Assembly (NCBI GenBank): GCA_948470475.1
Contig: OX419342.1
Coordinates: 6,658,496-6,722,495, forward strand
Reading direction: 5' to 3'
Length of the DNA: 64,000 bases
Source of the DNA: Galaxea fascicularis
Taxonomy: Eukaryota; Cnidaria; Anthozoa; Scleractinia; Euphylliidae
In this document: positions 3,608-63,827 of the stretch, one piece after another
How the letters are laid out: each line of letters starts with the position of its first letter
Position numbering within the stretch: position 1 is the stretch's first letter
Made by a program: the position numbers and the translations under genes
Notes under the pieces: generated by a model
The model's input: the letters and a program-made list of their open reading frames with translations, nothing else
What the model was told of the DNA's origin: nothing
The model's database searches: none

Positions 3608-3676
3608 CTTACCATCTCATCGAAAAACACAGTAAACGTCGATTATAGCAAGAAATACTTCTGGTGTTGTAACAGG

Positions 3677-4534: not shown

Positions 4535-4690
4535 CATACGGCAACATATGACAGAGAGCAGAGGTAGATTCGACACTTAACCCTTGGTTTACTTTTAATA
4601 AATAATAATAAATACTTAATTAAACACTCCCCTAGAGGGCCTTTTCAGGGACAATGAAATAAAAAATACAAATGAACACTACAGGGTTAA

Positions 4691-5820
4691 AGTGCCTATC
4701 ACCCCTAGCCGGTTTATTTTGTTCTGAAAAGTAGACATGGTAAAAAAGCAATAACAAAGAAAAAAAAAACTGGATTAGAAGCGCTCTGTGATTTTTAAAA
4801 CGCAATCGAAATCAAGATTTTCGAAGATAAAACCGCGCACAAAGAAGTCTGGCACCAGTATCAGTCGTGACGTCAACCCGTTATCTCCACAACATACGAA
4901 CAACTAAAACTATAAGCGATTCAGTGAGAAATCCACCCGAGGCGGACCATTTTGGCTGAAAAATGTCTGAAAGTCAATCCGACTCCGAGATAAGCGATTA
5001 CCCTGTTGATTCAGAATAAACTGCCGACCGGTTGGCTCAGTTAGTAGAGTACCGGACTACCGTGCGGAAGGTCGTGGGTTCAAGCCTGGCCGGACCAGCA
5101 CTCAAGGTCTTAATAATAACTGAAGAGAAAGTGCTTCCTCTCCAATAGCATCTGTAAATGGTTATACTTTCTAGTCTTCTCGGATAAGGACGATAAAACC
5201 GGAGGTCCCGTCTCACAGCACTTGTGTGGGACGTTAAAGAGCCCACACACTGACCCTAGGATCACTCTCTTCGGTTCTGGGGGCACCTATAATCCTACTG
5301 TTACTATGACATACTATAAACTGCGTGGCTGCCATTTGCGCCATAAGAGCAGTCTGGCTAAGTCCCCAACAAAGTGTTGTAAAGCGCTTTGAGTCTGTGG
5401 TAAAGCACTATATAAATACCTATGTATTATAACTATATCCCAGGATATATCCACCCAGTTCTTTCTACGTTTTTTCGCCTCGGGACGGGCATCACCGAAG
5501 AAAGGTATAACGTGAAGAATTATACCTTTCTGCACATCTGGAAAGGCAGAACATCCCCCAGCCACACACCTTCCCAGCATATTTCCTTCTGTTGAGCGAA
5601 GGTTAAGATACCGGGTTGACGTCACAAGCTATTTAGTTCCCAGGCTTTCGATTGCTCCTTTTTGAATTCAAAATGGCGGAAAAAAATGAGCTTTTCGGGG
5701 GTTTTTGCCCTCTGATAAAAAGAAGTCAAAGGGCAGAACAAGGTTTATTTCTTCACAGTGCTTCTTTGGTAGACATAAATTATCGGAATTCATTATCAGT
5801 AGGTAGGGATGATAGGCACT
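4691..5820. mobile_element. piggyBac-like non-autonomous element, TTAA target duplication
   Basis: The element is bounded by inverted ends (AGTGCCTATCACCCCTA at 4,691 and its near complement ending at 5,820) and by TTAA on both sides (4,687-4,690 and 5,821-5,824). The uninterrupted SINE copies show a single TTAA at this site, giving the empty-site sequence. TTAA duplication is the hallmark of piggyBac-type transposition. No transposase ORF is visible. A second SINE is nested inside. Confidence 0.75.
5025..5432 (+). mobile_element. tRNA-derived SINE nested in the piggyBac-like element
   Basis: The head (GTTGGCTCAGTTAGTAGAG near 5,031 and GGTCGTGGGTTCAAGCC near 5,069) has Pol III A and B boxes. 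The body has a GGGACGTTAAAGA segment, and the tail has an AAAGCGCTTTGAG and AAAGCACTATATAAATACC pair, typical of animal SINEs that share LINE 3' tails. No open frame is expected. Confidence 0.7.
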
Positions 5821-6734
5821 TTAAGAATCCCAACTGGCGGGAGGCAGACCAATTGGCTATTTACAAGAATGACCGAGGACTTGATCCAGGCACGAACCAA
5901 GAACAATACCAGCTAGTGGCTACAGCGGGATTTCAACCGGGGTCACCGCATTGAAATCCAGCGCCCTAAACCACTCGGTCTTTTTTGTAAACGAGTCACA
6001 CTGATATTTTTCATGAGCTCTGACTCAGGTGGAAATAACTTGCAGCTATTCTTTTCTTTTTTCGCTAACAGACAGTTGAATTGTTAGCCCAAGCGTTGTT
6101 AAGATTTAACAGCCATCATGTTAGGATACCACATTAAATTAAAGTAGCACTGTGGCGTCATTTTTATAAACTCAAGGTTCAGTACTTCCATCACTGAAAC
6201 CTTTGAAACGTTTTACAGTCTTATTACGTACTGAGTACTGACTATGTGCATCCTTGACAGGATACTTTATAGTGACGACTAAACTCGGTCTCTGGTTCAG
6301 CTTTGATGGTAAAAGTACATAGCTAACCCAGTTTTAAATTAACTGAACTTTAAAAACAAAAGCCTTTTACAGAAATGACACTGTTAAGCTATAAATAAGG
6401 CGACTTCGTTGGTTATCAGATTTTGTTTTAGTTGCAAATGATGTTAAAACTTGTCAAGCATCAAGAGTTTTAATTCAGGTAGCGATTTTTTCTCCCGGCG
6501 CCGATTAAAAACAGCTGTAATAACTACTGAACGGCTCTGTAATACCCATCGCCCTAAGCGATAAAGTGGTCCAATAGCATTTGCTACGATCTCCTTTTTA
6601 CAAGTAGTCATCAACGTACAATGCAAAAATACCACTATATCAGGGGGCAGAGAATTAGAAGGTTCACGTACCACGTAACGTTCACGTATGTTCACGTGTG
6701 TTGATAAACGGAGAATTATCAGAGCCATACATCA

Positions 6735-7829
6735 TCAAACTTGGCGTGCCACAACGAAGCATTTTGGGCCCTTTACTATTTAATGTGTACATTAATTGTG
6801 ACGCAAGTCACGCTATTTCCGTTCTCTTATTTAATTCTCTTTTGTGACACATCAACACGTCAAGAAACTCAAATTGCTCTGGAACGTGAATTCACTGAAA
6901 TGCGGTAATTGGTACACTGACAGCAGGTTGACTATAAATGTCAAGAAGATCAAACTTATGCTGGTAGGCAGTAAAAGGATGCTGTCTATTTGAAGATTTT
7001 GAGTTGCAACCAAATGGTACACAAATCGATCGCGTGCAGCCGTTCAAATATCTTGGAGTAACAATTAATGCAAAATGGAGCTGGAAGCCACAAATAAATC
7101 AGCAATCTGCTAAAGAAACTAGGTCATCGGCTTTCTTTGTTTAATCGCATATTTCATATGTTAGACAATATAACTCGCATAGCCTTCTACAATGGGCTAG
7201 TGCTGCCACACCTAGACTATGCCGACACAGTGTGAGGAGATCAACCCAGTCTAAAATCAGAAATAGAAAAATTGCAAAGTCTTCAAAGGAAATTTGCGAG
7301 GAAAATTAAATTAGGCAAGATGTCTTCTTCAGAAGCTCTGAAGTGTATGAATTGGCTCCCTCTGGCTGGAAGACGTCTTTCTCACCATGTACCGCCGTAG
7401 AAAATGCAATCAAAGGAAACATTTCGCAACATTTTGAAAGTTTTAAATCGACACTACCTAGATTACCTAAACCTAAAACGGAATGCGGAAAGAGAGAGTC
7501 CTACTTCCGTTTTACAAATGACTGGATGTCCCTCCCAGCATTTTTTAGAAAGCCAACGCCATGCACAATCTTTAAGAAAAACCTTACAAGGTTCTTAATG
7601 GATAAACATTTTTAGATAAATGAATAAATATTTTAAATGTGAACGGCGTATTGTTGATACAAAATTATTTGTAAATAGGTTTTGGGACAGTACCTAGTTT
7701 TTCATAGTTTTTAGATCTGTGACATTTGTATTTCTTATTTTAGATTTTAATACTTTTTTTTTCATTTTTATGGAGGACCTCCCTGAAAACCACGTATTTA
7801 TGTGACAGGTCCTTCCTCCTTAAAATTTG

Positions 7830-7905
<76 letters not shown>
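6735..7905 (+). mobile_element. Truncated LINE (non-LTR retrotransposon), dead
   Basis: Translation near 6,750 gives LGVPQRSILGPLLFNVYIN, the reverse transcriptase motif just before the catalytic aspartates. Later frames give FKYLGVTI near 7,047 and a C-terminal stretch at about 7,475-7,615 ending in FLMDKHF. Several frameshifts and stops break the frame. The 3'UTR contains GGACCTCCCTGAAAACCAC and ends in (ATT)n. The matching part of U1 (around 470-490) lacks it, so it inserted after duplication. 5'-truncated and inactive. Confidence 0.8.
7829..7905. repeat. (ATT)n microsatellite, LINE 3' tail
   Basis: About 25 ATT units directly follow the LINE 3'UTR and probably originated as its simple-repeat tail. 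Similar tracts occur at 39,184, 39,606 and 44,224. Confidence 0.9.
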
Positions 7906-7907
<2 letters not shown>

Positions 7908-8368
7908 GTCTTTTCGGTTTGAAAGAAAGTCGAAATAAACAACGTAAACAGGCGTACCTGCGTTGAGTTTGATAAGACCTCTTAACTATGCGGGGTTGAG
8001 GTGCTCCGTTGCTATTTCTAGTGTCTTTAGCTTCACCACTTGGTGTTTTGGTGGCTAAGAAATAAAGGAACCTATTCCCCACGCCTCCTCCTCATTTTGC
8101 AGTAAAACAATTGGCCTTAATAAAAAAACTGACTTATTAACACAACAGCTGAAGTTGGCTTACATAAGTTTGCAGAATTACCACTCAACGAGCACGTTTG
8201 TGTCATGATTATTAAAATGTTGTCCTCTTAAACTTTCGGTCTGAAGTATCAAATGATTATTCAAAACACAGGAAGTTAATAAAGCTTACATAGAGCAGCT
8301 GCTTATACTTTGTGCACACAGTGAGTATTAAGAGTGATACTGAACTCGTTTCCAGTTGCTATGTTAGT

Positions 8369-8747
8369 CCCGGTTCAGACGCCGCTCCACTCATGTGCCG
8401 GATTAAACTCATCAGTCCGGTAAAAGAGCAGCGTCTGAATGAATTCAGTACGACAGTTTAATTCGGTGTGGCAACGTTAATGTTAAGTTCGACAAGGTCT
8501 ACCGCATTATTCGACTCTGGAGCGGCAACTGATTCATATATACCGCGCTCTTCTCATGTGCCGAGCCAAATGCATTAATTATGACAATGTATAAATGTAC
8601 AATGCCTTCTCCCTACATAAAATACATATTAGGTCCAAAACACGGTACGCCGTCTGAATCAGCTGTCGCACGAATGTCGCTCCAAATTAAAGTCGAACCT
8701 AATTAAATTAGGTTGGACACATTAGTGGAGCGGCGTCTCAACCGGGA
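8369..8747. mobile_element. MITE, CCCGGTTCAGACGCC family, copy 1
   Basis: Terminal inverted repeats (CGGTTCAGACGCCGCTCCAC at the left, its near complement ending at 8,747) enclose ~380 bp without an ORF. The corresponding positions in U1 (about 935) and U3 (about 13,225) are uninterrupted. Two further copies are at 18,209 and 23,479. Confidence 0.75.
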
Positions 8748-14662: not shown

Positions 14663-15523
14663 TTACATTGCATGAAGATCAAAAGGGTGAACAGGATTTG
14701 AATTTGCACACTTCCCACAACTCAGTTGCTTGTACATTGCTTTCCTGAACTCTTGCATTCTTATGGCATATATCACAGGATTAACTATTGAACACGCGTA
14801 ATATAGCGCATACACTGACAACTTAATAGGAAGTTGTGTCGCAGAGGGCAAGTCATTCCACATGTCAAATAGAAAAACAGCATAAATGGCATACGGCAGA
14901 ATGGTTACTATAGAAACAAAAGTAACTATGAATAAGGTAATGGACAGTTTGCTATTTGAAGCAACTGCTCCACCAGGGTGGGGAGGGGGGCTACTTTTGA
15001 TTTTTAGAATAATGATGACGTAAGACACTGTAAGTATCAAAAGTGTGAGAACAATCAATGATGCCCATAAGTAATGATAAACACCTAATCGCATGAAAAT
15101 ATATAAGACGGCATGCACAGAAGATGCTAGAAGTAGAGCTAAAAACCAACTGCAAATGATGGTTTTAAAGTAAAAGCGCTCTTCAATTGAATAGTACCTG
15201 AAAGGGTAAAGTGTCGCGTGAAGGCGCTCTAAAGAAAGTAAGCAAAGATTAATTATGGAAACCATTGGAAATGTGTTATATGCGATAGAAATACTGTGGT
15301 CTTCCCATCCACTTCCATAATCCGCCTGTAAGTAGTATATTTCCAAAGGCACCGTCACTGCTCCAACCAGTAGATCAGCCGCAGTCAGGTTTATTATCAG
15401 GTACGTACTGCGCTTGCGTAACTGGCAGTTTCTTGCAAAGGCGATGAGAGTGAAGGCGTTTACCATCACGATCACAATAGATTCCGTGATAAGCACTGCC
15501 AACCAGATTGTATCATTAGCCAT
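14663..15523 (-). CDS. Class A (rhodopsin-like) GPCR, intact copy 2
   Basis: A complete 286-aa single-exon ORF closely similar to GPCR 1 (start MANDTIWLAV, end DLHAM). It keeps the TM1 asparagine, D50 in LTAADLLVG, ERLHA after TM3, ILPY in TM6, NPVIY in TM7 and the basic tail QEFRKAMYKQLSCGKC. As in copy 1, no cysteine precedes TM3 and none lies in the second extracellular loop. Changes cluster in the TM4 and second-loop region (for example MRLGVYHY against MGSASSAY), which is where ligand selectivity could differ. A 5'UTR acceptor (CAG complement at 15,593) lies about 70 bp upstream of the ATG, and AATAAA signals lie downstream near 14,570-14,590. It is the only intact receptor in the inverted part of the array. 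Confidence 0.93.
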   Translation of the reverse strand: MANDTIWLAVLITESIVIVMVNAFTLIAFARNCQLRKRSTYLIINLTAADLLVGAVTVPLEIYYLQADYGSGWEDHSISIAYNTFPMVSIINLCLLSLERLHATLYPFRYYSIEERFYFKTIICSWFLALLLASSVHAVLYIFMRLGVYHYLWASLIVLTLLILTVSYVIIILKIKSSPPPHPGGAVASNSKLSITLFIVTFVSIVTILPYAIYAVFLFDMWNDLPSATQLPIKLSVYALYYACSIVNPVIYAIRMQEFRKAMYKQLSCGKCANSNPVHPFDLHAM

Positions 15524-15592
15524 TTTGTTACTAGACTAGACAGATCTCTTGCTATAATCCACGTTTACTGTTATTTTCCATGAGATGGTAAG

Positions 15593-19928: not shown

Positions 19929-20788
19929 TTACACTGCATGAAGATCAATAGGGTGAACAGGATTTGAATTCGCCCACTTCCCACAACTCAGCTGCTTGTA
20001 TACTGCTTTCCTGAACTCTTGCATTCTTATGGCATATATCACGGGATTAACTATTGAACACGCGTAATATAGCGCATACACTGATACAATAATACGAAAT
20101 GTTGTTGCTAAGGGCAGTTCATAAACATGTGAAATGGAATAACAGCAAAAATGGCATACGGCAGAATGGTTACTATGGAAACAACAGTAACTATGAATAA
20201 GGCAATGGATAGTTTCCTATTTGAAGCAACTGCTCCACCAGGGTGGGGAGCGGGGCTACATTTGATTTTTGCTATAATGATGACGTATGACACTGTAAGT
20301 ATCAAAAGTGTGAGAACAATTAATGATGTCCATAGGTAAGCAGAACTAGCTGATCCTATGTAAACGATCATGACGACATGCACAGATGCTAGAAGTAAAG
20401 CTAAAAACCAACTACAAATGATGGTTTTAAAGTAAAACCGCTCTTGAATTAACAAACAGTGCTTCAAAGGGTAAAGTGTCGCGTTAAGGCGCTCCAGAGA
20501 TAGTAAGCAAAGATTAACTAAGGAAGCAAATGGGAACACGTTATATGCGATAGAAGTACTGTAGGCTTGCCATTCACTTCCATAATCTGCCTTTAAGTAG
20601 TATATTTCCAAAGGCACCGTCACTGCTCCCACCAGTAGATCAGCCACAGTCAAGTTTATTATCAGGTACGTACTGCGCTTGCGTAACTGGCGGTTTCTTG
20701 CAAAGACGATGAGAGTGAAGGCGTTTACCATCACAATCACAATAGATTCTGTGATATGCACTGCCAACCAGATTGTATCATAAGTCAT
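19929..20788 (-). pseudogene. GPCR copy 3, single-base frameshift
   Basis: The first 226 codons match the intact receptors (MTYDTIWLAV through TM6), including D50, ERL after TM3 and ILPY. Near 20,125-20,130 one base is missing relative to the intact copies, in the loop after TM6. The original frame ends soon after, at 20,108. TM7, the NPVIY motif and the C-tail remain in another frame down to the stop at 19,929. The lesion removes TM7 from the product. With only one visible lesion, this is either a very young pseudogene or a sequencing or assembly error. Confidence 0.85.
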
Positions 20789-20857
20789 TCTGTTACTAGA
20801 CTAGACAGATCTCTTGCTATAATCGACGTTTACGGTGTTTTTCGATGAGATGGTAAG

Positions 20858-23547: not shown

Positions 23548-24037
23548 CACCTGTTCAGGGGGACGTGGGTTCAAATCCCGCTCAGGGCAATTCTTTCATG
23601 GTTTTCATTCTAAATTAATCAGTTTATTTACGGTATGGGTTTCATTTCTTCATTCATTGCTGTCTATATAAATAAGCCTGCATCATTAATTTGATCCTTC
23701 TGATTATCTGATGCCTAAATTGGTGTTTGCCTGTGAATCGTTAGTCGATCCTTAGGTTTAAGGCTATGAAGGGGTTACAGGCTTTCCCATCTCACCTTTG
23801 AAAGAATCCCGGGATACGCACGTTAGGTCTACTCGCGTTGCCAGCGTGGTTGTCCTGATAGTGTAGTGGCCATTACACCCTTCCGGTGTTCGGGGGGACG
23901 TGGGTTCAAATCCCGCTCAGGGCAATTCTTTCATGTTTTTCATTCTAAATTAATCAGTTGATTTACGGAATGGGTTAATGCATTTAGTTCGGCACATGAG
24001 AAGAGCGTCGTATATATGAATCAGTTGCCGCTCCAGA

Positions 24038-36498: not shown

Positions 36499-37400
36499 AT
36501 GATCCTTTTACCAGACTTGAAAGTTGTCTTGTTTTAATCGACGTGTGCTGTTTTTTTTTATTAAATGTCAAGCTGATGATTCCTAAAATACCCACTGAAA
36601 GTCGTCGCTGAAAAAAACTTTAAGGAAAAACATCTTTGATACGGAAACAAAGCAGGGCATTAGGCCAATAATGAGCGGGCCATTTCTTTATTCTCGATCC
36701 CTTCCGATCTTACTATTTCGCCGCCTCAAACTTTGTGAATTTGCTCTCCGACCACTCCCTGTGCTCTAGCTGTCTGCCTGTGAATTATTCAATATTGCTT
36801 CTTTGTGAGTCGAAATAAAAAATGTCGAACAATCTTAACTTGATCTACATTTAAGTTCTGAACTGGATCACAGCACACTCTATTCAGAAAGTGAAACCGA
36901 GTTGCAGAGTGAAATTATTTGAAAATGTTGAAATGGTCTACAAATCGAATAATCTAGCCTGCGAGCAGGGTACCTCGTTACGAAAAACCATTTTATTTAT
37001 TTTCTCGTGGTACTGAAAACCATTGCAACGTTTTCCGATCACTGTCCATTTCAGTTTGTCTTGTTATCACTTACAACTGATGAACGGAATAACTTACCCG
37101 TTATATTCAGAGGAACGAAGCTTAACGTATTGCTTGTGTTTAGAGACGCCTTAGGTGAAATTGTGGTCCTGGCGTTGTTAAAAAAGCAAGGAGAATTTGC
37201 ATTAAGAAGCATCTTTTAATGGACAGCCATGTCAGGTGTTCATATACACGGGGTTGATAATTCGATTTGGCCGTTCTCCGAATCATAACGAACCAGGGCC
37301 TCCATCTTAGCAAGGAAAAAAAATAGGTCCGCAATGCGTACATGTGTGGCTTACAAGACTGCATGACAGGCGCTCGAATCTCGGACAAACTCTAAGGAAG
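36499..37400 (-). repeat. Unit U7: 5'UTR intron and first-exon region of GPCR copy 5
   Basis: Matches the start-proximal intron of copy 4 (TTTTACCAGACTTGAAA near 36,508) and the first-exon region, with donor complement ACTTAC (a GTAAGT donor) at 37,092-37,097. No coding sequence. Confidence 0.55.
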
Positions 37401-40183: not shown

Positions 40184-41084
40184 TTACATTGCATGAAGAT
40201 CAATAGGGTGAACACGATTTGAATTCGCACACTTCCCACAAGTCAGCTGCTTGTATACTGCTTTCCTGAACTCTTGCATTCTTATGGCATATATGATAGG
40301 ATTAACTGTTGAACACGCGTAATATAGCGCAAACACTGATACATTAATACGAAATTGTGTCGCTAAGGACAACTCATTCCACATGACATATGGAATAACG
40401 CTATAAATGGCATATGGCACAATGGTCGCTATGGAAACGATGGTAACTATGAATAAGGTAATGACAGTTTCCTGTCTGAAGCAATTGCCCCACCGGAGTT
40501 CCGAAGAGGGCTACTTTTGATTTTTAATATAATAATGACGTAAGACACTGTGAGTATCAAAAGTTTGAGAACAATTAATGATGTCCACAGGAATGAACTG
40601 CCTGATGGTATGTACAAATATAATACATTATCTGCAAACGCTAGAAGTAAAGTTAGCAGCCAACTACAAATGATGGTTTTAAAGTAAAACCATTCTTCAA
40701 TTAACAAATGGTGCTTTAAAGGGTAAAGTGTTGCATGAAGGCGTTCTAAAGAAAGTAAGCAAAGATCCACTAAGGAGGCCATTGGAAACCAACCATAGGC
40801 GATATTAGTACTGAAGTCTTGCCAGTTAAACCCATTTTCATGATCCGCCTCTGGGTAGTAGACGTCCAAAGGCGCTGCAACTGCTCCCACCAGTAGATCA
40901 GCCACAGTCAGGTTTATTATCAGGTACGTACTGCGCTTGCGTAACTGGCGGTTTCTTGCAAAGGCAATGAGAGTAAAGGCGTTTATTGTCACAATCACAA
41001 TAGATTCCGTGACGAGTACTGCTGCCCAAATTGTGTACGCTTGAACGTTTGAAGAGAAAGATAAGCAGCTGTATCATTAGTCAT
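40184..41084 (-). pseudogene. GPCR copy 6, 38-bp insertion and single-base deletion
   Basis: The ancestral ATG is at 41,082-41,084. Four codons later a ~38-bp insertion shifts the frame; the receptor frame resumes from about 41,034 with TIWAAVLVTES. TM1 to TM5 read through to about 40,460, where one base is missing after ASDRKLS. TM6, TM7 (NPIIY) and the C-tail (ending DLHAM) continue in the next frame to 40,184. Motifs are otherwise intact (LTVADLLVG, ERLHA). An internal ATG (40,998) would start only in the middle of TM1. Only a few lesions, so a recent pseudogene. Confidence 0.85.
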
Positions 41085-47897: not shown

Positions 47898-48868
47898 CAG
47901 TGGAATCCCGATTTTTCGAACCCTCCTTTTTTCGAAACTCCTAAAGTCGGATTGGATTTGCTTCGGTCCTACCGGCTCCAATTTAACGCCCGATTTTTCA
48001 TAACTCGCGATATTTCGAAATAATGCTTTAATTCCTTTCAAAAATTTATATTCGGATTTTGGCCCCAGTTGTTTCATCCACATGCACTGCGATATGCAAT
48101 TAACACTCAGGGTTCCGGAACGGGGTGTTAAGGCCCGTTTACACAGGCGATTTTTGTCGCGGCAACTCGATGCAATTTTTGTCGCGCTGAAGTTGCATCA
48201 AGTTTCAAACATGTTCGAAACCTCTGCGATATCGCGGCGACAAATCGCACGGAAAATCGCATCTGGTTTACACGTGCGATTTTGAAGTTGCAACTTTAGC
48301 GCGACAAAAATTGCATCGAGTTGCCGCGACAAAAATCGCCTGTGTAAACGGGCCTTTACTGGCAGGGATCTTTTTTATTAGCAAAATTGCAAATCTGTCA
48401 TTTAACGCCGTTCTCAACACAATTCGAGGGTCTTGGATTATCTGATCAAAGCTCCTTTGTTTATTTGAAAACAAGCAAAAGTTTATGACTCGTTATTTTA
48501 GCTGAATGATTTGCTGTAGATGTTTCTTTTTTTCACCGTGGGATTGCCTCCAAATGGAAGGTAATGCAATCAGCGGGCCGGTCCGCGTAAAATTAACATA
48601 TGTATAATACAGCATTTAGTTTTTGTACCGCTAAATTGGCTTAAATCTTTAAACTTTTGTTTTGTTTGTAAATACAAAGAAAGTTTTCGATCTGTTTGTA
48701 CTGAATAGATGGTACATTCACCAACAAGAGTTCCATAACGTTGCTTTCTGCATTCTTGTTTCGTATAAACCAATACTATGGTAAATAAGGAGTCATTAGA
48801 TTTCGTACGCCCAATTTTTCGAACCAAATTCCGTTTCCATAGGAGGTTCGAAAAATCGGGATTCCACT
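47898..48868. mobile_element. pogo/Tigger-like MITE
   Basis: Inverted ends AGTGGAATCCCGATTTTTCG and CGAAAAATCGGGATTCCACT enclose ~970 bp. Further inner repeats read TTTTTCGAACC and TTTTTTCGAAACTCC. CAGTGGAATCCCG-type ends with TTCGAA repeats are typical of pogo-like Tc1/mariner elements. No transposase is visible. A younger MITE is nested within (48,131-48,355). The element ends ~180 bp upstream of the ATG of the gene at 49,053. Confidence 0.6.
48131..48355. mobile_element. 225-bp MITE with AGGCCCGTTTACACAGG ends, TTA duplication
   Basis: Inverted ends of more than 50 bp (AGGCCCGTTTACACAGGCGA and complement) flanked by TTA at 48,128-48,130 and 48,356-48,358. Very well preserved, so recent. 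Confidence 0.85.
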
Positions 48869-49010
48869 TTATGATCCCTTTTCCCGCCCGGTAGTCCATC
48901 CGTTACCAGCAACACGAGAAACAACCGGAAATGAGCTCTGCAAGTGTTACGTCGTTACGTTTGTCCCACTTTTGTCACACAATGAACGTGACCTTGTGAA
49001 AGTAAGATCG

Positions 49011-49026
49011 AAACTGAAAGTGAAAA
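49011..49026 (+). promoter_or_regulatory. ISRE/IRF-type site of the gene at 49,053
   Basis: GAAACTGAAAGTGAAA contains two overlapping GAAANNGAAA motifs, the core recognised by interferon regulatory factors. It ends 26 bp before the ATG. The paralogue at 57,468 has a matching site in almost the same place although the flanks differ. Cnidarians have IRF homologues, so the reading is plausible; it is untested. Confidence 0.55.
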
Positions 49027-49052
49027 TTGCTTACTTAGCAATATTCCCGTAA

Positions 49053-51996
49053 TGGCACCTTTATCAGGGGCAAACGAGGTAAGAAAATAATGTTAAATGA
49101 AATTTTCAAGGTCTTAAAACAAGAATCCTACACCGTTTTAGTTCATTCAAATACGATCTCAATTGAAAGGAATGGCTGATGTGACGTGGTTGGTAAAACG
49201 CGATAATTCTACACAGTAACCATTATCAATGATCCTTTTGCTTTTGACAGCGAGTTGACTTTTGTCCAGACGCTTTAATTATTAAGTGTCAAATTCTAGC
49301 CGATCTATGGTTCGGGGATTAAGCGTTCAGCCTTCGCCGGATGCCGGGGAGTGTTTGCCTTTACGCTTGCATGCTTAAACATCAAGAGTCTGCGTTTGAA
49401 CGCTGGTTTGAAGGAAACTGTATTTTTGTTCTTGTAGATTGCTGTGTATTCTAGGCTCGGCATCAGTGCTTTTTAACTGAGCTGCTTTAATTTTATTTAT
49501 TAAATATCATTAAGAAATCTTGTACAGGGTTGTTTTTTATTTTCCCATGATATGTTGTTGTTGTTGTTCTCTGTGTGAGGTTTTGACACAGAAATAAAAG
49601 AAATTATTTCTCATGTATTCATTCAATAACTTTTATACCCCTCAAATACCTTATTATGATGCTAAATGCATCATGGGTAATCTGCTTGACATGTTAAAAA
49701 AGTGTGAGGGCTTTTCAAGAACAAGCACCGAGTCACACATCTTCGATCATGTCAATCAGATTACCCATAAAGCCGCAGCTACAAGAGCAATTTTTTGCTT
49801 GCTATGGTAATGCATGTTAATTGCCAGAAAAATCGCAAGAAATTCAATGAGTTCAACTTTTTGCAACAAAATCACAGCCTTTGTCTCAATTATGTAGCCA
49901 CCACCGCGTGCCGGCAACGCGACATTTTCCAGAAAAAATCACATCGCCATTTGTTGGCAGTCTCAACCCATTAACTTCTGTGTCTCAGGAAAGCAATACT
50001 TGATAAATTAATGTTACCCCATTCTTTGAAACAGAAGACAATTATATAAAATTAAGTCCCACATCTCTCCCACATTCTTTCCCTTTCTTCTTGGCATGCT
50101 TTTCTTAGTTTTCATTAGAACAATTAACAAATTTCCTTTCAAAGGGAAAAACTCTTATAAATAGCTCCTATCTGAACTTTCTCCCTGTGTTAATTTTATA
50201 TATAATTTTTGTATATATTAAAACAGTAGATAGCATTTTTCACATGCTCTAATTAGCTACTCATACTCAGGATAGCAAGTGCTACTCACCTCCAGACAAC
50301 TTGTGCAAACTGCTCTTTATTGTTAACAGGAATAAATGAGTTCAAAATCATTATTTTTGAGTTTCTTATCATCTCACTGTTTTAGTATATACTAAAACCA
50401 GTTATTTACCCCAGTGTCAGTGGCCAGTGGAGGATATTTACCTGCTTTGTAGCTCAGTAAATTAATTCACCACTAGCCACTTCAACTTGTATCTTTCTCT
50501 TTTGTAACTGTTGTTGTCACAGATAGTGAGTCAGTTACCCTATGTTGGGTGTGTTGATTATATTTACAGTAAGCTGTTTTATGTTGTCACAGATGTCATA
50601 TGTAGCATTTAGAAATAATAATAATAATAAATTTATAGAGGGTTCCAGTCTTCATACTGAATTTTTGTTTTGTTTGAACTGCATTTTGGGTTTAGAAAAT
50701 GGCTGATAACAAATAGTTACAAACATTTATATTCAGTTATTGCTTGCAAACAGTAATGAAGCTGCCACTTGTCCACTTGAGACCAAATTGGAACCCAATA
50801 TGCAAGAGGCAAAGAGACCTCACAGCAGCTGCAATCATTGTCAGGCTAATTCTGTAGAACTTTGTTTTGCCTTTAAATTTTCATGGAAAGTTTCTGTTTC
50901 CAACCTGATTACTTGTGATGACTATTTACAGTGTAGCAGATAACTTTCAAAGCCAACTGGATTGGTGATGTTTTTTATGGTTCTTTAACTCACTGTAAGT
51001 ACTCTAAGCATGTCAGGTCAGGAAGCCATCTCCCTGAGACCCCCCCCCCCCCCTGGGGGGGGTACTTCTTGAAAAATTGGCTGAGGACGTGCGGCACACT
51101 TCCTGAAACCCTTACCCTATTTCAGACCAAAATCTGTGATTTACCCTACCCTATTTCAGACATGATTCATTGTTCCAGTTAACTTTCAGAGTTAGGGAGT
51201 CACGGAAAATTTTTAAGGGGTCATAAGACACGGGTCTTCCCTAATTTTCTTACTTAACAACTCTGTGTGTCGCGTCAGGGAGCCAGATTTCTCGGGTTTT
51301 TGACCCGAGACCCGCCGCTTATCTGGAACACTGTGATTAAAAATTTGATAGGCAATGTTTATATGCTTTTATTAAGTAGGATACAAAACTGTTCAAAGTT
51401 TTGAGTTTAAAATTACACTTTTAAAGCAGGTTGCATAATGTGCCACCAATTCAAGACTAAAGTGCATAAACCATACCCTATTTCAGACCAAAATGGGCAA
51501 AATTGACACCCTATTTCATACCTAAATGGCTGAAAAACAATACCCTTTGGTGCCGCACATACCAATATAGCCCATATAAGGGAGTACCCCCCTCCCCCCC
51601 ATCAGGCTTAAACCCCACAGGCAGCTCAGTCATATTATTTATATAATAGACCTGGGGTTATTTACAGATTCAAAGCTGCAGATATATTTGGTGGTGTTAT
51701 ACCAAGAAAAATAAGGTAGCAGTATCTTTGTTTTCTGGTTTCTTTGTTTGCAGTGTGTACTTAACTGAACCACATTTTGGTGCATTTGCACATGAAAATT
51801 GAAGAGTCACATTGTAGTTGTTCCTATTAGAGATCAATAGTCCATTTTACAGTTGTATGTTGACTGACCTGGCCTTTGAATGGAAGCAAGGCTGGGGGTG
51901 ACCGTGTTTTGATACAAACATCTGTCTTTCGCATGTAAATGCAAACTAGTTAGCATAACAACAACATGATTTACATGAGAAAAGCAGCGAGGTCTG

Positions 51997-52027
<31 letters not shown>

Positions 52028-55000
52028 CTACCCAAAGGCCAGGTCTCCGAACTCATAACTGCAAACTGGCCTATTCGCTGGTCTGAGTTTCCAATTAAGA
52101 ACAATTATTGCAATTTATATGGAACAAAACATTATTTTGACTTATCTTTGTTACTTCAATGTACCTTCGTGTGCTCTTTCTGGTTTAATTGTCACCTTGT
52201 TGACTTTTTTTCACCTGAGGGTCCATTGTGGACACAGACCTTTGAATTTGGTTGAGTGCACAGGACAACTGAGGAAGGCATAAAATAAAGGATAAATGCT
52301 ATTTTATTCTGACATAGTCTAGGTATTATGCCACTATATATCTACAGCAGTTCAAATCCATAAATAGCCCTCCCCCCCCCCACCCCCCAAACAAAAGTAA
52401 AATACAACCCAATAAGTAGCCCCAGGTCTTCTACTACATTTGGGTGGCCTGTGCCATTTTTGACCAAACAAAAAGGTGCAGGCCAGATCTTTGCAGTTGT
52501 CATTAATGAAGATTAGGGACTGGGGTTTTTCTCTTTTTATAACTCTGGTAGAAAACAGCATAATTTGATTACTGGTATGTTATACCATAGTAGCTGGAAT
52601 CCCCAGCTATGTTTTGCATATCCATGCCTTCCTTTAATCCCTGACTGTTAGAACTGTCCAATTTACCTAACCAAACAAACAATATATTTAAGTGAATAAT
52701 TTAAAAACTGTACTTCAACCATCTTAGAATACTGACTTTTCAATATTTGTTGTTTGGTGGGTGTGCAGATTGCCCTTATGACAATGCAGCAAATACTTGG
52801 CTGTCTCTATGAACACAGATATCCTTGCAGCGACACAGTTCAGCAAGGCCTTGATAGAATCCTGATTCAAGGGTATGGTGGGTGTCTGGATGACTTCACT
52901 GACCAATTTATTAGACCAACTCTTTCACTACTGGAAAAGCTTAAAGTTAAGGTGAATGTCAGTAGAAAGTAGTTTTTGTCCATTGACAAAACAATTTATT
53001 ATTGGTTTTGAAGGATCATCATATCCAGTTTACCATCATGATGATGAAGCTTGATGCACTGGACCCCAACTTTTGAGGCAGTTGATCAAATTAATGTTCA
53101 TGTGGTGTGGTTCAATTTTATCCTTGATTCAATTTTGTTGTGTGGTACATGTAACTGGGGATTAGGTTTGACAGGAAGTCCAATTGAACTTACAAATGTC
53201 ATGGCCAAAATGTTTCGGCAGGTTTTTTTCGCAGGTCCCATTCCCCAGGTAAAAAGCATCTCATAGCCCTAATCACTAATCAAAATTTTGTCTTAGATCG
53301 AGGTGAAACTGTTTGGCTAATAGCTATCAATTGATAAAACAGTGACACATAGCTGTGTGGAATGTGACATGCAAAAGAGATATGCTGGTGGTACATGTAT
53401 ATGCAGAAAACAGTTATACTAAAGAATACATATATATGTTGTGCCGCGTAGCACTATAAATACATACAAGTGGTGGAACAGAGAATTAACTCTGAAGTGT
53501 AAATTAAAGTGCTAAAAGAAACCCATCAAAAACCCACTGGGCGTTAGCCCTAGTAAAGGGTATCAGGGAACCACACGAGGATTAGATCTACCGTTGCTCT
53601 GCCGACTAAGCTACGAGGTCGGACAGAGAAAGTCGGGAACGATTAAGGTGGTGAATCGCGGCGAAGAGAAAGTAAGGGTTCATATATATGTTGTGCCGCG
53701 TAGCACTATATGTATGCATGTTGTAAAGGGTGTCAGGGAACCACACGAGGCAAAGAAAAAATTGTTATGACCCTGATACTGCTTCCCTGATACCCTTTAC
53801 TAGAGCTAACGCCCAGTGGGTTTTTCATGGGTTTCTATTAGCACTTTTATTTACACTTCAGAGTTAATTCTCTGTTCCACCACTTATACTAAAGAATAGA
53901 TCAGGTCACTGCTCTCATCTCCGCTCCCCCTCCCCACAGAAAACAGTCATACTATAGAATAGATCAGGGTCCTGCTTCCATCCCTGCTCCCCCTCTCCCC
54001 CAGCAATGTTCATTTCAAGGGTTTTCAACATTATTCTCTTTTTTTGTTTGTTTGCCTTTGCTAGGGCTTTCCTTTAGTTAAAAGAGGGAAAGTGATCGTT
54101 CTTCTGCTGCCACCATCACATCACTTGGAATATGGAGAAATGTTCTATCAAGTAAGTGTCTACTGAGGCACAACCCTGATGATCCTGTAGCTTGCCTCTT
54201 TTACGTTTTCAAATGGCGTAAAGTTTTGAGAATTTAGGGGACATTATATCAGATTCGGTGAACGAAGACGTTGCCGAGGCTGTGGACAAATTCAAATTAA
54301 GTAAGAAGAAGAATAAACAACAGGTTTTTTTTGTAATGACTTGAACAAAAATACTCGAGCCGTCTATGTCGAGCGTCACTAAACGAAACAGAATGTTTCT
54401 TTATTATATAAAACAAGTAGATTCCATGTTGCCATGCGTCTGTTTTATTAAATTGCACTGCTGAAACATTTTCCTCTGCTACATAGGTTGGCCACACAAT
54501 GCCAGGGACTTTAGCATTAAAGTTCTCAAAGTATCATGGTGACACCTTGGTTCTCCAATCATCTACCATTCAAGAAACAGACTTCCCTTTAGCATTCACT
54601 CAACAGTACATAAACAAAGTTCGGAATAAAGCCCTGACCGTGGGCGGCGAGTTAATGCAAGTTTTGTTAACCTCGATTGAAGATCATCATGGGGTCGTGG
54701 TTACTGAGAAGACCGCGCTAAAGAGCGTAATGCCTTACTCCGTCGGCGAATGTGCTAGTAGTTCTAGTCTCAGAGCAGTTTTGGAAACAGGCCCATCGAT
54801 GTCCTCTCTGTCTGAAAAACATATTTTCCGCCAACCAGACGCACACGCGCAGTCACGGTCAAGTGTAGACAAAACAGCGCCTCCTTCTTTAACGCAAGAT
54901 CATATGGATATTCCAACTGCAAAATCCAAGGGCCTGCAATCAAGGGAACGTTCCGTCAATGAAAGTGTTAACGGACCAGGTAGACCAGCAAATTCTTTAC

Positions 55001-55926
55001 TTAGGAAGGCTGTTAGAGATGAGCTACCGACACCTGTTTCGGCTCTTCATACTGACCGGCAGTTTTCATGTGAATGCGAAATTGATTCAGCTCATCCGAC
55101 AGCATTCACTTGTCTCGAAATTGACAGCCGCTGTTCAGGTGCGAGTAAGCATAATCTATCGCTCTCTAGCCCTTCCAAGCATGCTGTCAAAAATGGCCGA
55201 CCAAATCAGTGTCCTGAAGAACTCTCTTCAAGAGGAAGAAGCAATCAAGCACATTCTGTTCCCATACAAGCAGTTTATAACAAACAGTTGAAACAATCAT
55301 TTTCAAGTCAACGCGAAAGTGATGCTCCGTATCCGCTTCTTATAGAAGCCGTTAGGCGTGTTTCAATAGCATCGCCCAATGGACATCAACTTGAAGGACA
55401 GTCGTTAAGTGTAAGAGCAAGAAGTCCGACGCATGCTCACCAAATGCACGCATGCACAGTCAGCGATGATCCAGGACTGTTTCGTCCGGAAAATAGTTCG
55501 AGAAACGGTGATCATGAACAGTTAAACCCATTGCAGCACGTCATTCTCTCATGCAAAAAGCTACAAAAGATCCAAAAAATACAGTCACGGGATGCGAATC
55601 TGAAGGAAAGTCTACAGCTGCAACTAGATGCACTTGACCATATTTTGCTATCGTGTAGGCGCCCAAGCGAACCGTCTAAAGAACATTCTACAAGTGGAAG
55701 TCGACGCAATCCAGTGTACTCTCCTAATCTGCAAACACTTCGACATGATCCGGGGGAGTCAGCGTATCCTCTCCTCACGGAAGCAGTTAAAGAAGGTGGA
55801 CCAGAAACACTTCGAGATGACCCGAGAAATTACTGTTCCCCATCTAACGAATATTTTTCGAGTGGAAGAGACTGGAAGTCACCGTATCCTCCCTTAATGG
55901 AAGCAATTAAGGGGGGATATAGATGA
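49053..55926 (+). CDS. ISRE-linked YPxL-motif protein 1 (novel family), four exons
   Basis: Exons 49,053-49,079, 52,769-52,951, 54,065-54,151 and 54,487-55,926 join in phase 0 with GT-AG borders, giving about 578 aa. The N-terminal ~185 residues are conserved with the paralogue at 57,468: a predicted helical part (QGLDRILIQGYGG, FTDQFIRPTLSLLEKL), then KVIVLLLPPS, GEMFYQVGH and a mixed strand/helix region to about VVVTEKTALKSV. About half of exon 2 and two-thirds of exon 3 residues are identical. The remaining ~390 residues are polar and low in complexity, with the peptide YPLLIEAV (residue 381), YPLLTEAV (526) and YPPLMEAI (566). No signal peptide or membrane segment. AATAAA signals follow near 56,293. 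I do not recognise the N-terminal domain; function is unknown. The start ATG is supported by the matching first exon of the paralogue. Confidence 0.8.
49080..52768 (+). other. First intron of YPxL protein gene 1
   Basis: A 3.7 kb intron (donor GTAAGA, acceptor GTGTGCAG). Apart from the G-tract element at 51,043-51,605 and a C-rich tract at 52,372-52,388, it shows nothing I can name. A 67-codon ORF at 50,740-50,943 follows a CAAACAG and could be an alternative exon, but the paralogue has no counterpart. Confidence 0.6.
51043..51605. mobile_element. G-tract element (GGTACTCCC/GGGAGTACC family)
   Basis: C15 then G8 with TACTTC at the left, and GGGAGTACCCCCCTCCCCCC at the right, enclose repeats of ACCCTATTTCAGACCAAAAT (near 51,115 and 51,475) and GTGCGGCAC/GTGCCGCAC in opposite orientation. 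It is a fold-back element without an ORF; a partial relative is at 39,686. Confidence 0.6.
53471..53884. mobile_element. Fold-back element with tRNA-like core in intron 2
   Basis: Arms of ~100 bp mirror each other (TGGTGGAACAGAGAATTAAC at 53,471; its complement ending at 53,881; also CCCACTGGGCGTTAG with CTAACGCCCAGTGGG). The core on the minus strand includes a tRNA-like GTAGCTTAGTCGGCAGAGCA. TATATGTTGTGCCGCGTAGC occurs at both 53,435 and 53,687, so one arm has been duplicated. Lies in the second intron of YPxL protein gene 1. Confidence 0.6.
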
Positions 55927-57026
55927 ACACGGGAAATCCAGGAGCAACCCCCAATGTGAGAAACATCATACAAGTGTGCACCGGATCAGTCCGGTTTAGC
56001 CTCCTTCTGTCCGGGCAGTTAGGATTGATGCATAGCCAGCAGTCAAAGGTTACCAAGCTGAAAAAATATTCATGAACTGCTGCTATCATTAACTTGGCTC
56101 ATGCTAATTTAAAACTAAGCAATTGTAACTGTTTCCACTTATTCACAGGTCATCACTCTGCATGATCAGTTTCCTCGCGTCGGCAACGAATGCGGTTGTG
56201 TCGTACGTTTCATGTTCACGTTGTTTGGAACCTCTGATGAAACACGAAGCACGTATCATGACGTATCGTTGATATGCCGACTTTGCATTAATAATAAATA
56301 AAATAGTCGCAATAATATCAGTGACAAAGTATTAAATATGTACAGTGCCTGCAGCGCCAGCACTGAAAATAAAGGCCGCTAAGATGTAAAAGACTTTTTA
56401 AAAAAGCTTGTTTCAAAAAGAAGTTCTTGTGTGTTTATGTCTAAGAATAAGTGTTGTAGTTCATTTTTATCCTTGGTTTAAATTTTATTTCCCTTTATTT
56501 CAAACTCATTATAATACATTACCATACCTCAAAACAAAGGAAAATAGAATTTGAACCAAGGATAAAATTGAACCACAATATAAGCAAGATAAAACATTTT
56601 CTGTCTGGAATTTTTGCCATTTAAATAAACTTGCTTCTTGATCGGTCCATCCTTGCTCAGCATTAACTTAGAAATTAGACCTGCAACCCACCATTCCATA
56701 ACTGAAATGGGATGAATTTGCATATTATAACGTCATAACTCAGACAGTAACGCAAATTTCAAAAATCGATGCGTAAAGTTTTGCGCCTTGGCGATCGTTA
56801 ATCATCGGTACCATTTTCGATATCCAAAAGTGTACGCCGCTCCAGTTTTTGGCTCTTGGCTCTGGTCACGTCACTTACCAAATAAAAATAATTATGGTTG
56901 TGACTTGAAAATCTTGGAGACCTGTTCGATTGTATAAACATAACCAGACAGCTTGTCTGTGCAAGTTAGGGTTTCTAAAGATATGAGGGTTGGGAATTTT
57001 TCCATAGCAACAATTAAGTCAGCTAA
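55927..57026. other. Intergenic region between the two YPxL genes
   Basis: Includes the 3'UTR of gene 1 (AATAAA at about 56,293 and 56,297). A short inverted pair (TTTATCCTTGGTTTAAATTT near 56,467 and AATTTGAACCAAGGATAAAA near 56,547) forms a hairpin of ~100 bp total. No gene is seen. Confidence 0.5.
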
Positions 57027-57238
57027 AGGCGCGTTTACACTACAGAAAAAACGGGTCCGGACCTCATCAAAATTGTAGTACGGACCCATAACTTTTGTAA
57101 AGAAATACTGGAGTTTCCGCGGGGCCATAGGCGCCTATGGCCCTGCGGAAACTCCAGTATTTGCTTTACAAGAATTATGGGTCCGTACTACTTTTTTGAC
57201 GGGGTCCGGACCCATTTTTTCTGTAGTGTAATGTGCCT
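57027..57238. mobile_element. 212-bp palindromic MITE upstream of YPxL gene 2
   Basis: Ends GCGTTTACACTACAG and CTGTAGTGTAATGTGCC are inverted and flanked by TAA (57,024-57,026 and 57,239-57,241). The whole element folds back on itself, with CGGGTCCGGACC, GGAGTTTCCGC and GGCGCC in the centre. It lies ~230 bp from the ATG of gene 2. Its length and TAA duplication match the MITE at 48,131 upstream of gene 1. Confidence 0.8.
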
Positions 57239-57423
57239 TAAGTTACTTCCCCCTTTAAAATCAAGGTGGGTTTTACCGAGGGGCAATATTAAGAGCATAA
57301 ATTGTTGATCCTTTTCCCTATTCCACAAGTCCAGGCTCAAAGCATACAGAGAAAATTACAACCTTTTAACTCTTCCTGTTTTTCGCGGAAGTAACGCAGC
57401 ACTGTTCCACATTGCGTCAGAAC

Positions 57424-57435
57424 GAAAGTGAAACT
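57424..57435 (+). promoter_or_regulatory. ISRE/IRF-type site of the gene at 57,468
   Basis: GAAAGTGAAACT is a perfect match to the vertebrate ISRE core (complement AGTTTCACTTTC). It ends 32 bp before the ATG and is followed by a TATA-like GTATAATTTT at 57,441. The corresponding site in the paralogue lies at 49,011. Confidence 0.6.
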
Positions 57436-57467
57436 TTCAAGTATAATTTTCCCCTTAAGTCCTTGCG

Positions 57468-60400
57468 ATGGCACCCTCGAGAGATATAACTGAGGTAAGA
57501 ACATAAAATAACGTCGCTTTTTACTGCTAAAATCAAGTGATGTAAATTCAAGCCTTCCATTCTGTCGAATTCATCACTTGAGGGCGATCAGAAATCAATC
57601 AGAAACGAATGGTGACAATTTGTCTGGCAATTGTTTTGAATAATAAAATCGTGCCTTCGCTGCCGTACGAAGGCAGTGATGGACATTTAAAATGCTCAAA
57701 CAAGTTTACTGAAGTACTCTGAAACTTCAGAGATCATACATTCATCGAGGAGCAGCACTGAAGCATTAGGTTGAACATCTCCATAAGCTAATTATGACCA
57801 CAGCCGTGTTCAGTAACAAATACCCTTTCTTTGTGAACAGAATGCCCTCATCGAAGCTCAACGTGCACTTGCGGTTGTTTATGGAAGCAGTTATCCCTTC
57901 TGTAATACAGTTAAACAAGGCCTGGAAGGAATATTGAATCAGAGGTATGGTGGATCTCAGGAGGACTTCACCGTTAAGTTTATCCGACCCACTGTTGTCT
58001 TACTTAATAAACTGAGTGAGAAGGTAACTACTATTGTTGTCTCTTAAGTTTATAGGTTATGACAGTGGCTTAGTTTTGATTTTATTAATATCGGTTTGTC
58101 TGTTCATTCCTTCAATGTTCACTATAAACTATTTTCTTTGTTGTTATTTTTTCCATGCAGAGGTCTGGTTAATGTTAATTGTGTGTATTTTTAATATAAA
58201 GCCATGTTGTTGAGAACCACAGAGTAGTAACACTATACAGCTAGTGAACAAATGGAGTCCATTTGGTAGTTCGTGTGTAATCCAATAAGACATGCATAAG
58301 GTCAAAATGTATGAACAAGGAGCCTATGAGCCGGCCAGGCGAGTAGTGTGACTACGGTTCTTACCATGTTTTGACATCCTTCATGCATTAATTATCAGAG
58401 TACACATGCACTGATATGAAATGTGTTTGTTCAAAACATTGTTTTCTTTTTAATTTCTTTGACTCGTGACATCATTCGTGCATCTATACTTTGAATTAAT
58501 CACAAATACATCTAGACCAATCAAAATGTGAGGTTTGCACCATCTATTGTGTAACAAAATACCATAATCATTATTGCCATGCAGGGCTTTCCCATAATAA
58601 AAAATGGCAGAGTGATTGTTCACCTGTTGGCACCAACAAACCATCTGGAAAGTGGAGAAATGTTTTATCAGGTCAGTATGTTTCAGTAAAGGCCAAAAAC
58701 ATTTTTAGAGTGCACCACCTCCCCCCCCCCCCCATCCCCTTCCTCCTCTTATCTCTAGGTCTGGATCCACCAATGTGCTGACTGTACTACAGCATCAAAT
58801 GAATGTGCATGAATAATACGATTCAGAGGGTGAAGGTGAGGTGACATGAAACAACTTAGAATGATTTCTGCCTTTGTAATGCCCCTCGCAACAAAAGTGT
58901 GGTGAAAATAATTTTCCAAGTCAGTGTGGTTCCACAAATGTTGACTGTTCCTCTAAAACACACCAATATGACTGCCATGCGCCACGAACATTGGCAGAAG
59001 GAATAAAGGAGATCATGCTGATTGGTATTACTTCTTTCTCTTCAAAATTGGTAAGGTGGCACTTTCACACTCAAAAGTGTAAAATACAGGTTTTATGACA
59101 TTTTGACAATTCTGTACTACAGACTGCTACAAATTTCATCAAATATCAAATTGTTCATGTGAAACAAAGCAACGTATTGGCTTAAAATTTCCCTGTGAGA
59201 TTTCTTTCACGCGTGTGTAGAAAATGTTGCAATAGGAGCCTTGTGTTGCTGTAACGTTATCTTTTAGACTTTTGCTTACCACATGAAATCCAGCAATAGT
59301 AATGCCTACTCTTACGACATTGAATTGGGTTTAAATTTTTAGTGTGCATGCACTTGAAAAATGAGAATTTCAAAGTAGTCATTAATATACTAATTTTAAA
59401 TTGACTCATTGTAACTCTAGTGTCATTGTGTGTGATGCGTTTATGATTACTTTGCTTTAACTGTCTTTTTTCCAAAGTGAAACTGTTTTTTCCACGTTCC
59501 AATTGTTTTCTTTTGTGCTCAAATGACCGTGGTGTTCACATAATAGGTTGGCCACAGAACTCCAGGGACATTGGCAGTAAAGTTCACCAAGTATGAAGGC
59601 AACAATGTGGTCATGCAAGCAGGCACCATACAGGAAAATGAATTACAGATGGCATTTAGACCGGAATATATTGAGAAAATGCGAAATCTAGCCAAAAACA
59701 TGGGTGACCAGTTAATGCGAATTATGCTAATCTTAACGGAAAACAGCCAAGCAGTCTTTATTACGGAAAAGGTGGAAGTTCGGAAAGTCATGTCCGACTG
59801 TCACCCACCTGTCATGGAAACAGGTATGCCCAAGTTGCCTGGCCCAGGGGATCCAGTACAGGTAGATGAACCCACTACCTGTTGCTGCTGTGCGGATCAA
59901 GCAGTCAGAGATGACCAAACAGCCCTAATCTTTGGCCACCAAGCTAAAGAACACGATTCTAAGGAAACTGAAAATCTACCTTATCCCCCTCTTACACAGG
60001 CAGTCGGAAATGCCCCTCTGGCACCGGCTACTAGCCGTAACATCGACCACGCAAGTGTTCCAGGATCTCCAGGAGTCACCAATCTCCAACCTGAAGAGCA
60101 CAGTAGAAGCAATTCATCATATCCTCCTCTTGGGCTAGCCGCCGATGATAATGTGTCACATCCAGTCACTTGCCCCTCAGCCGGAGAGAGATTTTCTGGA
60201 GCAAATGTGACCAATTCAAAATATCCTCCTATAGTGCAAGCAGTCAAGGATAATCCTCCTCTTGTGCTAGCCGCCGATGATAATGTGTCACATCCAGTCA
60301 CTTGCCCCTCAGCCGGAGAGAGATTGTCTGGAGCAAATGTGACTAATTCAGTATATCCTCCTATAGTGCAAGCAGTTAGGGATAATCCATCACAAGCCAC

Positions 60401-61538
60401 CAACATACTTGCAGCCCCAGAGCGATCGTCTGGAACAAGTGTGACAAATTCAGAATATCCTCCTATGGTGCAAGCAGTCAAGGATAATCCATCACAACCA
60501 ACCACCAGGCCTACCGCACCCGAGCGATCGCATGGAACAAGTGCAACCAATTCAGAATATCCTCCTATAGTGCAAGCAGTCAAGGATAATCCATCGCAAC
60601 CAACCACCAGGCCTACAGCACCAGAGCGATCGCATGGAACAAGTGCAACCAATTCAGAATATCCCCCTATAGTGCAAGCAGTTAGGGATAATCCATCACA
60701 AGCCACCAACATACTTGCAGCCCCAGAGCGATCGCATGGAACAAGTGCAACCAATTCAGAATATCCCCCTATAGTGCAAGCAGTTAAGGATAAACCATCA
60801 CAACCAACCACCAGGCCTACAGCACCAGAGCGATCGCATGGAACAAGTGCAACCAATTCAGAATATCCCCCTATAGTGCAAGCAGTTAAGGATAAACCAT
60901 CACAACCAACCACCAGGCCTACAGCACCAGAGCGATCGCATGGAACAAGTGCAACCAATTCAGAATATCCCCCTATAGTGCAAGCAGTTAAGGATAAACC
61001 ATCACAATCAACCACCAGGCCTACATGCCCAGAGCGATCGCCTGGAACAAGTGCAACCAATTCAGAATACCCTCCTATGTCGCAATCAGTAAGGGATAGT
61101 CCATTTGAACCAGCCACCAGCCGTGCAACCGAAAAGCACTTGCGCGATACAATTGTAAGAAATCCAGACTATCCGCCTTTGATGGAAGCAGTTAGAGACC
61201 ACTCGTCAAGGGGCAGAAGGGAGCATCCAGCATATCCTCTTACACAAACAGTTAGTGATACGTCAATGTCTGCAGCTAGTGAACAGCCAGCTGCAGACAA
61301 TCCAACATACCCTGCTCTTATACAAGCAGTCGGTGGCACTGTCCAGTCGGTTGAGGAATCTTCTATTGCGAGTGCAGCTGCAGGCAATCCAGCATACCCT
61401 CCTCTCATGCAAGCAGTGAAAGACAATCCAGTTGTATCCGTGAATGGCTACCAATCCCAAGGAAACCTTCTTAGCTCAAGCAGTTCACCGACGAATGGAG
61501 AACCGTATATGGTAGAAGAAGGTCTAGATTTGTTTTAA
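57468..61538 (+). CDS. ISRE-linked YPxL-repeat protein 2 (novel family), four exons
   Basis: Exons 57,468-57,494, 57,841-58,023, 58,585-58,671 and 59,547-61,538, all phase 0 with GT-AG borders, encode about 762 aa. The first three exons have exactly the same lengths as in gene 1 (27, 183, 87 nt). The N-terminal ~185 residues match gene 1 (QGLEGILNQRYGG, FIRPTVVLLNKL, GRVIVHLLAP, GEMFYQVGH, VFITEKVEVRKVM). A cysteine cluster TCCCCADQ follows. The tail from about residue 245 to 716 has some fifteen copies of Y-P-[PA]-[LIM]-x-[QE]-A-V-[KRG]-[DNG], the central ones in a 34-residue tandem repeat. YPPL/YPxL is the type of peptide bound by the ESCRT adaptor ALIX, but other readers are possible. No membrane segment or enzyme motif is visible. 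AATAAA at 61,922 may be the poly(A) signal. Confidence 0.82.
58672..59546 (+). other. Third intron of YPxL protein gene 2
   Basis: Donor GTCAGT, acceptor CATAATAG. It has a C14-15 tract at about 58,718-58,732 and otherwise no feature I can name. Confidence 0.6.
60121..60325 (+). repeat. 132-bp imperfect duplication within YPxL gene 2
   Basis: CTAGCCGCCGATGATAATGT occurs at about 60,137 and 60,269, each followed by CACATCCAGTCACTTGCCCC and CCGGAGAGAGATT. The 132-bp (44-codon) period keeps the frame. It borders the 102-bp array. Confidence 0.8.
60326..61085 (+). repeat. 102-bp coding minisatellite in YPxL gene 2
   Basis: The marker TTCAG[AT]ATA recurs at 60,347, 60,449, 60,551, 60,653, 60,755, 60,857, 60,959 and 61,061, exactly 102 bp (34 codons) apart. 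Each unit encodes EYPPIVQAVKD followed by a proline/threonine-rich spacer ending APERSHGTSATNS. Units differ by a few bases and two spacer types alternate (QPTTRPTAPE, QATNILAAPE), so the array grew by recent unequal exchange. Confidence 0.93.
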
Positions 61539-63650: not shown

Positions 63651-63827
63651 ATGGACTCAACCGACAATGTCCGTTTGAAGTTGGCCACGCAGCTTGAAAA
63701 CATCCGATCAAAAATCGCCAGCGGGACACTTGTGTTATTCGTTGGTGAACAAGCTTCAACGTTAGCCTCCCCTGACAATCCTTATCCTTCACTGGATGAC
63801 TGGTGGCAGCTTATTAACCAAGCAGAG
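63651..63827 (+). CDS. First exon of a gene with a possible SIR2-like N-terminus (cut by the window end)
   Basis: The ATG at 63,651 opens 59 codons ending at a GAG|GTAAGA donor (63,828), the same donor context as the first exons of the two upstream genes. After LATQLENIRSKIASG comes TLVLFVGEQAST, then NPYPSLDDWWQLINQAE. The pattern helix, then L-V-L-F-V-G-x-x-x-S, resembles the beginning of SIR2-type NAD-binding domains, whose usual motif is GAG[VFI]S. Here the second glycine is replaced (GEQAS), so catalysis may be lost or the resemblance may be superficial. Later exons lie outside the window. Confidence 0.45.

Follow-up and report, generated by a model that had tools for sequence, protein, structure and literature searches.

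What might a gene family do that joins a conserved head to a tail of repeated Tyr-Pro peptides and carries a candidate immune control site just upstream? The question is raised by a 64,000-nt stretch of the Galaxea fascicularis genome (contig OX419342.1, positions 6,658,496 to 6,722,495; hereafter the window), in which two paralogous genes, A (49052-55926 (+), 578 aa) and B (57468-61538 (+), 762 aa), lie side by side. The interpretation favoured here, tentatively and on the basis of sequence, is that A and B may encode an immune-inducible, multivalent scaffold for ALIX and the endosomal sorting complex required for transport (ESCRT).

Both tails are rich in Ser and Pro and share with P0001, a relative of 768 aa found in protein databases, a unit with the consensus N-x-x-Y-P-P-[L/I]-x-[Q/E]-A-V-[R/K]-D. 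A picking pattern that fixes the Tyr and Pro by construction gave 28 units (3 in A, 14 in B and 11 in P0001), and B has one extra degenerate copy, YPLTQTV. The YPx[L/I] core expected of PalA and ALIX ligands is above chance in all three proteins, as A, B and P0001 contain 3, 12 and 9 occurrences against means of 0.08, 0.15 and 0.15 in 2000 shuffles of each, where the largest counts were 2, 4 and 2. Furthermore, the anchor [QEHKL]A[VI], chosen free of Tyr and Pro unlike the unit-picking pattern, is found at 32 places in the three tails and is preceded by YPx[LIMV] at 26 of them (3 of 6 in A, 12 of 13 in B and 11 of 13 in P0001) and by YPx[LI] at 23.

The units of A are YPLLIEAV (55330..55353 (+)), YPLLTEAV (55765..55788 (+)) and YPPLMEAI (55885..55908 (+)), and its tail of 393 residues holds three more AV anchors from which the YP part is absent. 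The YPPL/YPPI array of B extends over 59982..61418 (+), with a core (60345-61120) that has a period of 102 nt (34 aa), 7.6 copies and a 90% match. Thus, the sequence-only reading made earlier, which described both tails as full of one short peptide, was right for B with its 14 units but not for A with only three. In pairwise comparisons of nine B repeats, which are not independent of one another, the ratio of nonsynonymous to synonymous changes was 82:52 in the 10 motif codons versus 337:56 in the 24 linker codons. Because the unit is conserved while the linkers diverge, a docking role of the peptide is supported. The B tail, used as a genome query, returned itself and one match at an expectation value (E) of 0.65; the A tail was not recovered because its units are too few. 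One segment of the A tail, LNPLQHVILSCKK...LLSCRR (55522..55662 (+)), also occurs in P0001 and was not seen by eye in B, and the C-terminus of B, GLDLF (61521..61535 (+)), has the counterpart DLDLF in P0001. Since P0001 has the LSC...LLSC segment in common with A and the DLDLF-type end in common with B, it may have kept a more ancient and more complete architecture.

The title of Vincent 2003, as cited in PMC2171039, gives YPXL/I as a motif of PalA and AIP1/Alix, and PMC9531180 connects Alix with LYPXnL and syntenin with Alix as its cargo. In the proposed mechanism, an IRF factor would induce A and B, the head would attach to a target or assemble there, and the YPx[L/I] units, as putative ligands of the ALIX V domain, would recruit ALIX/Bro1-type ESCRT adaptors. 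Several ALIX molecules would be gathered on each protein, which could lead to ESCRT-III membrane remodelling or to cargo sorting at the place that the head marks. The sequence-only reading, an inducible multivalent adaptor whose N-terminus would sense or assemble, is partly supported, as the layout of head, tail and promoter fits it and the peptide, kept while the linkers around it diverge, speaks for a docking role.

As would be expected of IRF targets, the proximal promoter of each gene has a site of the GAAANNGAAA type, in agreement with the IRF-type site that had been noted just upstream. The IRF/interferon-stimulated response element-like site of A consists of two overlapping GAAANNGAAA cores (49010..49025 (+)) and ends 26 nt 5' of the ATG, and that of B, GAAAGTGAAA (57424..57433 (+)), ends 34 nt 5' of its own ATG. 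The window contains five GAAASTGAAA sites where 0.88 would be expected, a count that none of 100 shuffles reached: two overlapping sites 5' of A, one 5' of B, one at 36887 and one within exon 4 of B. The longer GAAASTGAAAS was found three times (0.44 expected; one shuffle reaches three) and GAAANNGAAA 16 times (7.5 expected; 0 of 100 shuffles reach 16). No gene is assigned beside the further GAAAGTGAAA site at 36887-36896 (+). For Nematostella, IRF, STAT, NF-kB and ETS motifs are reported in poly(I:C)-induced genes (PMC8476169).

The predicted four-exon plan is common to both genes, with GT-AG introns and every junction in phase 0 (27/183/87/1440 nt in A, 27/183/87/1992 nt in B). Gene A begins with MAPLSGANE (exon 1, 49052..49078 (+), donor gtaag), followed by exon 2 (61 aa, 52769..52951 (+)), exon 3 (29 aa, 54065..54151 (+)) and exon 4 (54487..55926 (+)), which encodes the remainder of the head and then the tail with three YPxL units. 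Gene B begins with MAPSRDITE (exon 1, 57468..57494 (+), donor gtaag), followed by exon 2 (61 aa, 57841..58023 (+)), exon 3 (29 aa, 58585..58671 (+)) and exon 4 (59547..61538 (+)), with the rest of the head and a tail of 14 YPx[LIM] units. The identical phase-0 plan and the similar starts described earlier are thereby confirmed, and so is the conserved N-terminus: over residues 1-181, A and B align without gaps and are identical at 93 of 181 positions (51%). By the NG86 method, the nonsynonymous (dN) and synonymous (dS) divergences of the heads are 0.34 and 1.22 and dN/dS is 0.28, where dS depends on the method (0.97-2.06) and is near saturation. This ratio and the identity suggest an old duplication, after which purifying selection acted on the heads.

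Four relatives in all, P0001 to P0004, were found in protein databases. P0001 has 57% identity to the A head over 93% of the query region, P0002 is nearly identical to exon 4 of A, and P0003 and P0004, both encoded on long contigs, are fragments at the level of exons. P0001 has no break across what are the head's four exons in A and B, and its contig of 2543 nt is too short for introns like theirs, so that we infer it to be, most simply, a transcript. The predicted exon joins of A and B are therefore supported by a relative, not by RNA-seq of their own species. Residues 5-69 of P0001, the counterpart of exon 2, were modelled as a three-helix bundle with block means of the predicted local distance difference test (pLDDT) of 67-87.

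The description of the family as unrecognised stands in that the head had no significant match in Pfam (a release without PF27628), NCBIfam or PADLOC, but it must be qualified, because P0001 and P0004, two of the four relatives, carry the precomputed Pfam label PF27628.1 and a recent curated model for the family seems to exist. The label stands on these relatives only. The model probably covers the exon 3 region, since exon 3 is the homologous stretch seen in the labelled P0004; a literature search gave no mention of PF27628. Among PDB sequences there was no trusted match to the head, and an ankyrin row at E 0.00071 was rejected because it summed weak stretches and vanished on repeat search. 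A single pattern-based scan of prokaryotic contigs and another of viral contigs turned up no relative.

Three loci of the family were found in the genome: besides A and B there is a third copy, which lies on the minus strand (C8:6275230-6276644) at a distance of about 430 kb from A. The third copy follows the exon plan of A and B, with exons of 183/90/306 nt found, and has 35% identity to B. Its head contains YPNSQAVKEGL (L009 6593-6561 (-)), which resembles the B tail unit YPPIVQAVKD.

Several observations weigh against the ALIX/ESCRT scaffold. Gene A carries three units only, and the third copy lacks the repeat tail altogether: the 20 kb read around it contain zero YP units and zero GAAASTGAAA sites (nor does the latter occur in the small readable part of L011), though neither its first exon nor its promoter was located. 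A tail-less copy could be a head-only version of the protein, e.g., a regulator. ALIX ligands of the LYPXnL type have Leu before the Tyr, whereas A, E, P, T or S stands there in 23 of the 28 units; in 4 of the 28 the L/I position is taken by M or V, and the ALIX motif leaves the unit's Ala-Val-[Arg/Lys]-Asp portion unexplained. Moreover, when the upstream 300 nt of the two genes are compared, their similarity score exceeds that of 198 of 200 shuffled pairs, so that the common IRF site may partly reflect inheritance and not selection.

One alternative that appears nearly as likely as the ALIX scaffold dispenses with ALIX: the unit would bind either a partner specific to the lineage or the head of the protein itself, the latter giving head-to-tail assemblies that could form a condensate or a filament scaffold. 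The conserved stretch NxxYPPLxQAVRD is indeed longer than YPXL/I, and self-assembly would agree with the tail-like peptide in the third-copy head; yet no other head shows this likeness clearly, and the third copy is itself tail-less. It is rather unlikely that the tail lacks a specific partner and is a spacer containing a neutral minisatellite: the 102-nt period of B points to recent expansion, but A, B and P0001 all retain the unit despite differing linkers, and amino acid changes are fewer in the unit than in the linkers. An improbable alternative would make YPPL/YPPI a YxxPhi sorting signal for the mu subunits of adaptor complexes, the protein a multivalent clathrin-adaptor scaffold and the DLDLF/GLDLF ends of P0001 and B an added clathrin contact. 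All 28 units have L, I, M or V three places after the Tyr (the picking pattern allowed these four and T), as such a signal would have it, but the Pro directly after the Tyr is not accounted for, the usual place of sorting signals is membrane cargo, and GLDLF is not known as a canonical clathrin box.

The gene that starts at 63651 (window 63651-63824 (+); L011 318-551) is paralogous to a gene near the third copy (L010 1407-2155), with 35 of 56 identical residues in the first exons and 47 of 63 in the second pieces. The linkage at both loci may reflect no more than one block duplication. Part of the gene at 63651 may extend into L011 at about 1000-8500, immediately right of the window, where the sequence reads N. 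A reading of both as SIR2-like (FAM118B) genes is only weakly suggested: the third-copy-side piece, joined by guess, matched FAM118B chains in the PDB at E 0.0011 for the whole sequence and 2.5 for the best single stretch, its second exon matched SIR2_2 at E 0.019, below the cut-off, and the first exons matched no SIR2 model. According to PMC12700824, FAM118B is needed for a toll-like-receptor-dependent response. A protein kinase exon (L010 8934-9179 (+)) adjoins the SIR2-like gene at the third-copy locus. The window also holds an array of receptor-like reading frames (3572-4534 (+), 14663-15535 (-), 20108-20800 (-), 29881-30660 (-), 34761-35472 (-) and 40184-41073 (-)), several apparently broken by eye; the two long frames tested score as 7tm_1. 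Long near-palindromic elements, possibly similar to miniature inverted-repeat transposable elements, were seen by eye at about 48130-48355 and 57026-57230, and a tRNA family match (23852-23924 (+), 38.2 bits) is possibly part of a short interspersed nuclear element.

If the ALIX/ESCRT scaffold were true, it would tie a multivalent peptide scaffold to a promoter signature of the interferon type in an animal that is likely non-bilaterian, with ALIX as a directly testable partner. Even with another partner, the genes would define a small family, apparently restricted by lineage, that has a clean exon plan and carries a conserved putative docking unit, and its two loci are both near FAM118B-like genes. 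A bolder version, quite doubtful as a whole, is that a coral-type lineage would have an IRF-driven effector family whose new type of head would plant up to 14 putative ALIX-binding peptides on an intruder or a damaged membrane, so that ESCRT, normally exploited by budding viruses, would become an inducible defence scaffold encoded beside a FAM118-like (antiphage-type) sirtuin gene.

Among known systems, the STAT linker-SH2 module resembles the head in a weak structural ranking of a low-confidence model and a nine-residue PGT...F match, but a diverged module of this kind, with tail tyrosines as phosphosites, is very unlikely, as there is no profile similarity (positive control 89.9%) and the FLVR Arg would be Lys (head residue 111) in 5 of 5 aligned members, if the PGT alignment holds. 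NVE23912, described in PMC8476169 as poly(I:C)-induced and hexacorallian-specific, is similar in its apparent lineage restriction and link to antiviral induction; it is a predicted secreted cysteine-rich protein, unlike A and B, whose induction is only predicted. The ligands of PalA/Rim20 and ALIX have the Y-P-x-[L/I] core in common with A and B. Known PalA/ALIX ligands, such as PacC and syntenin, contain more than one YPXL/I copy per protein. Compared with them, B has many more copies, no Leu before the Tyr, an unrelated head and a longer unit that includes AV[R/K]D.
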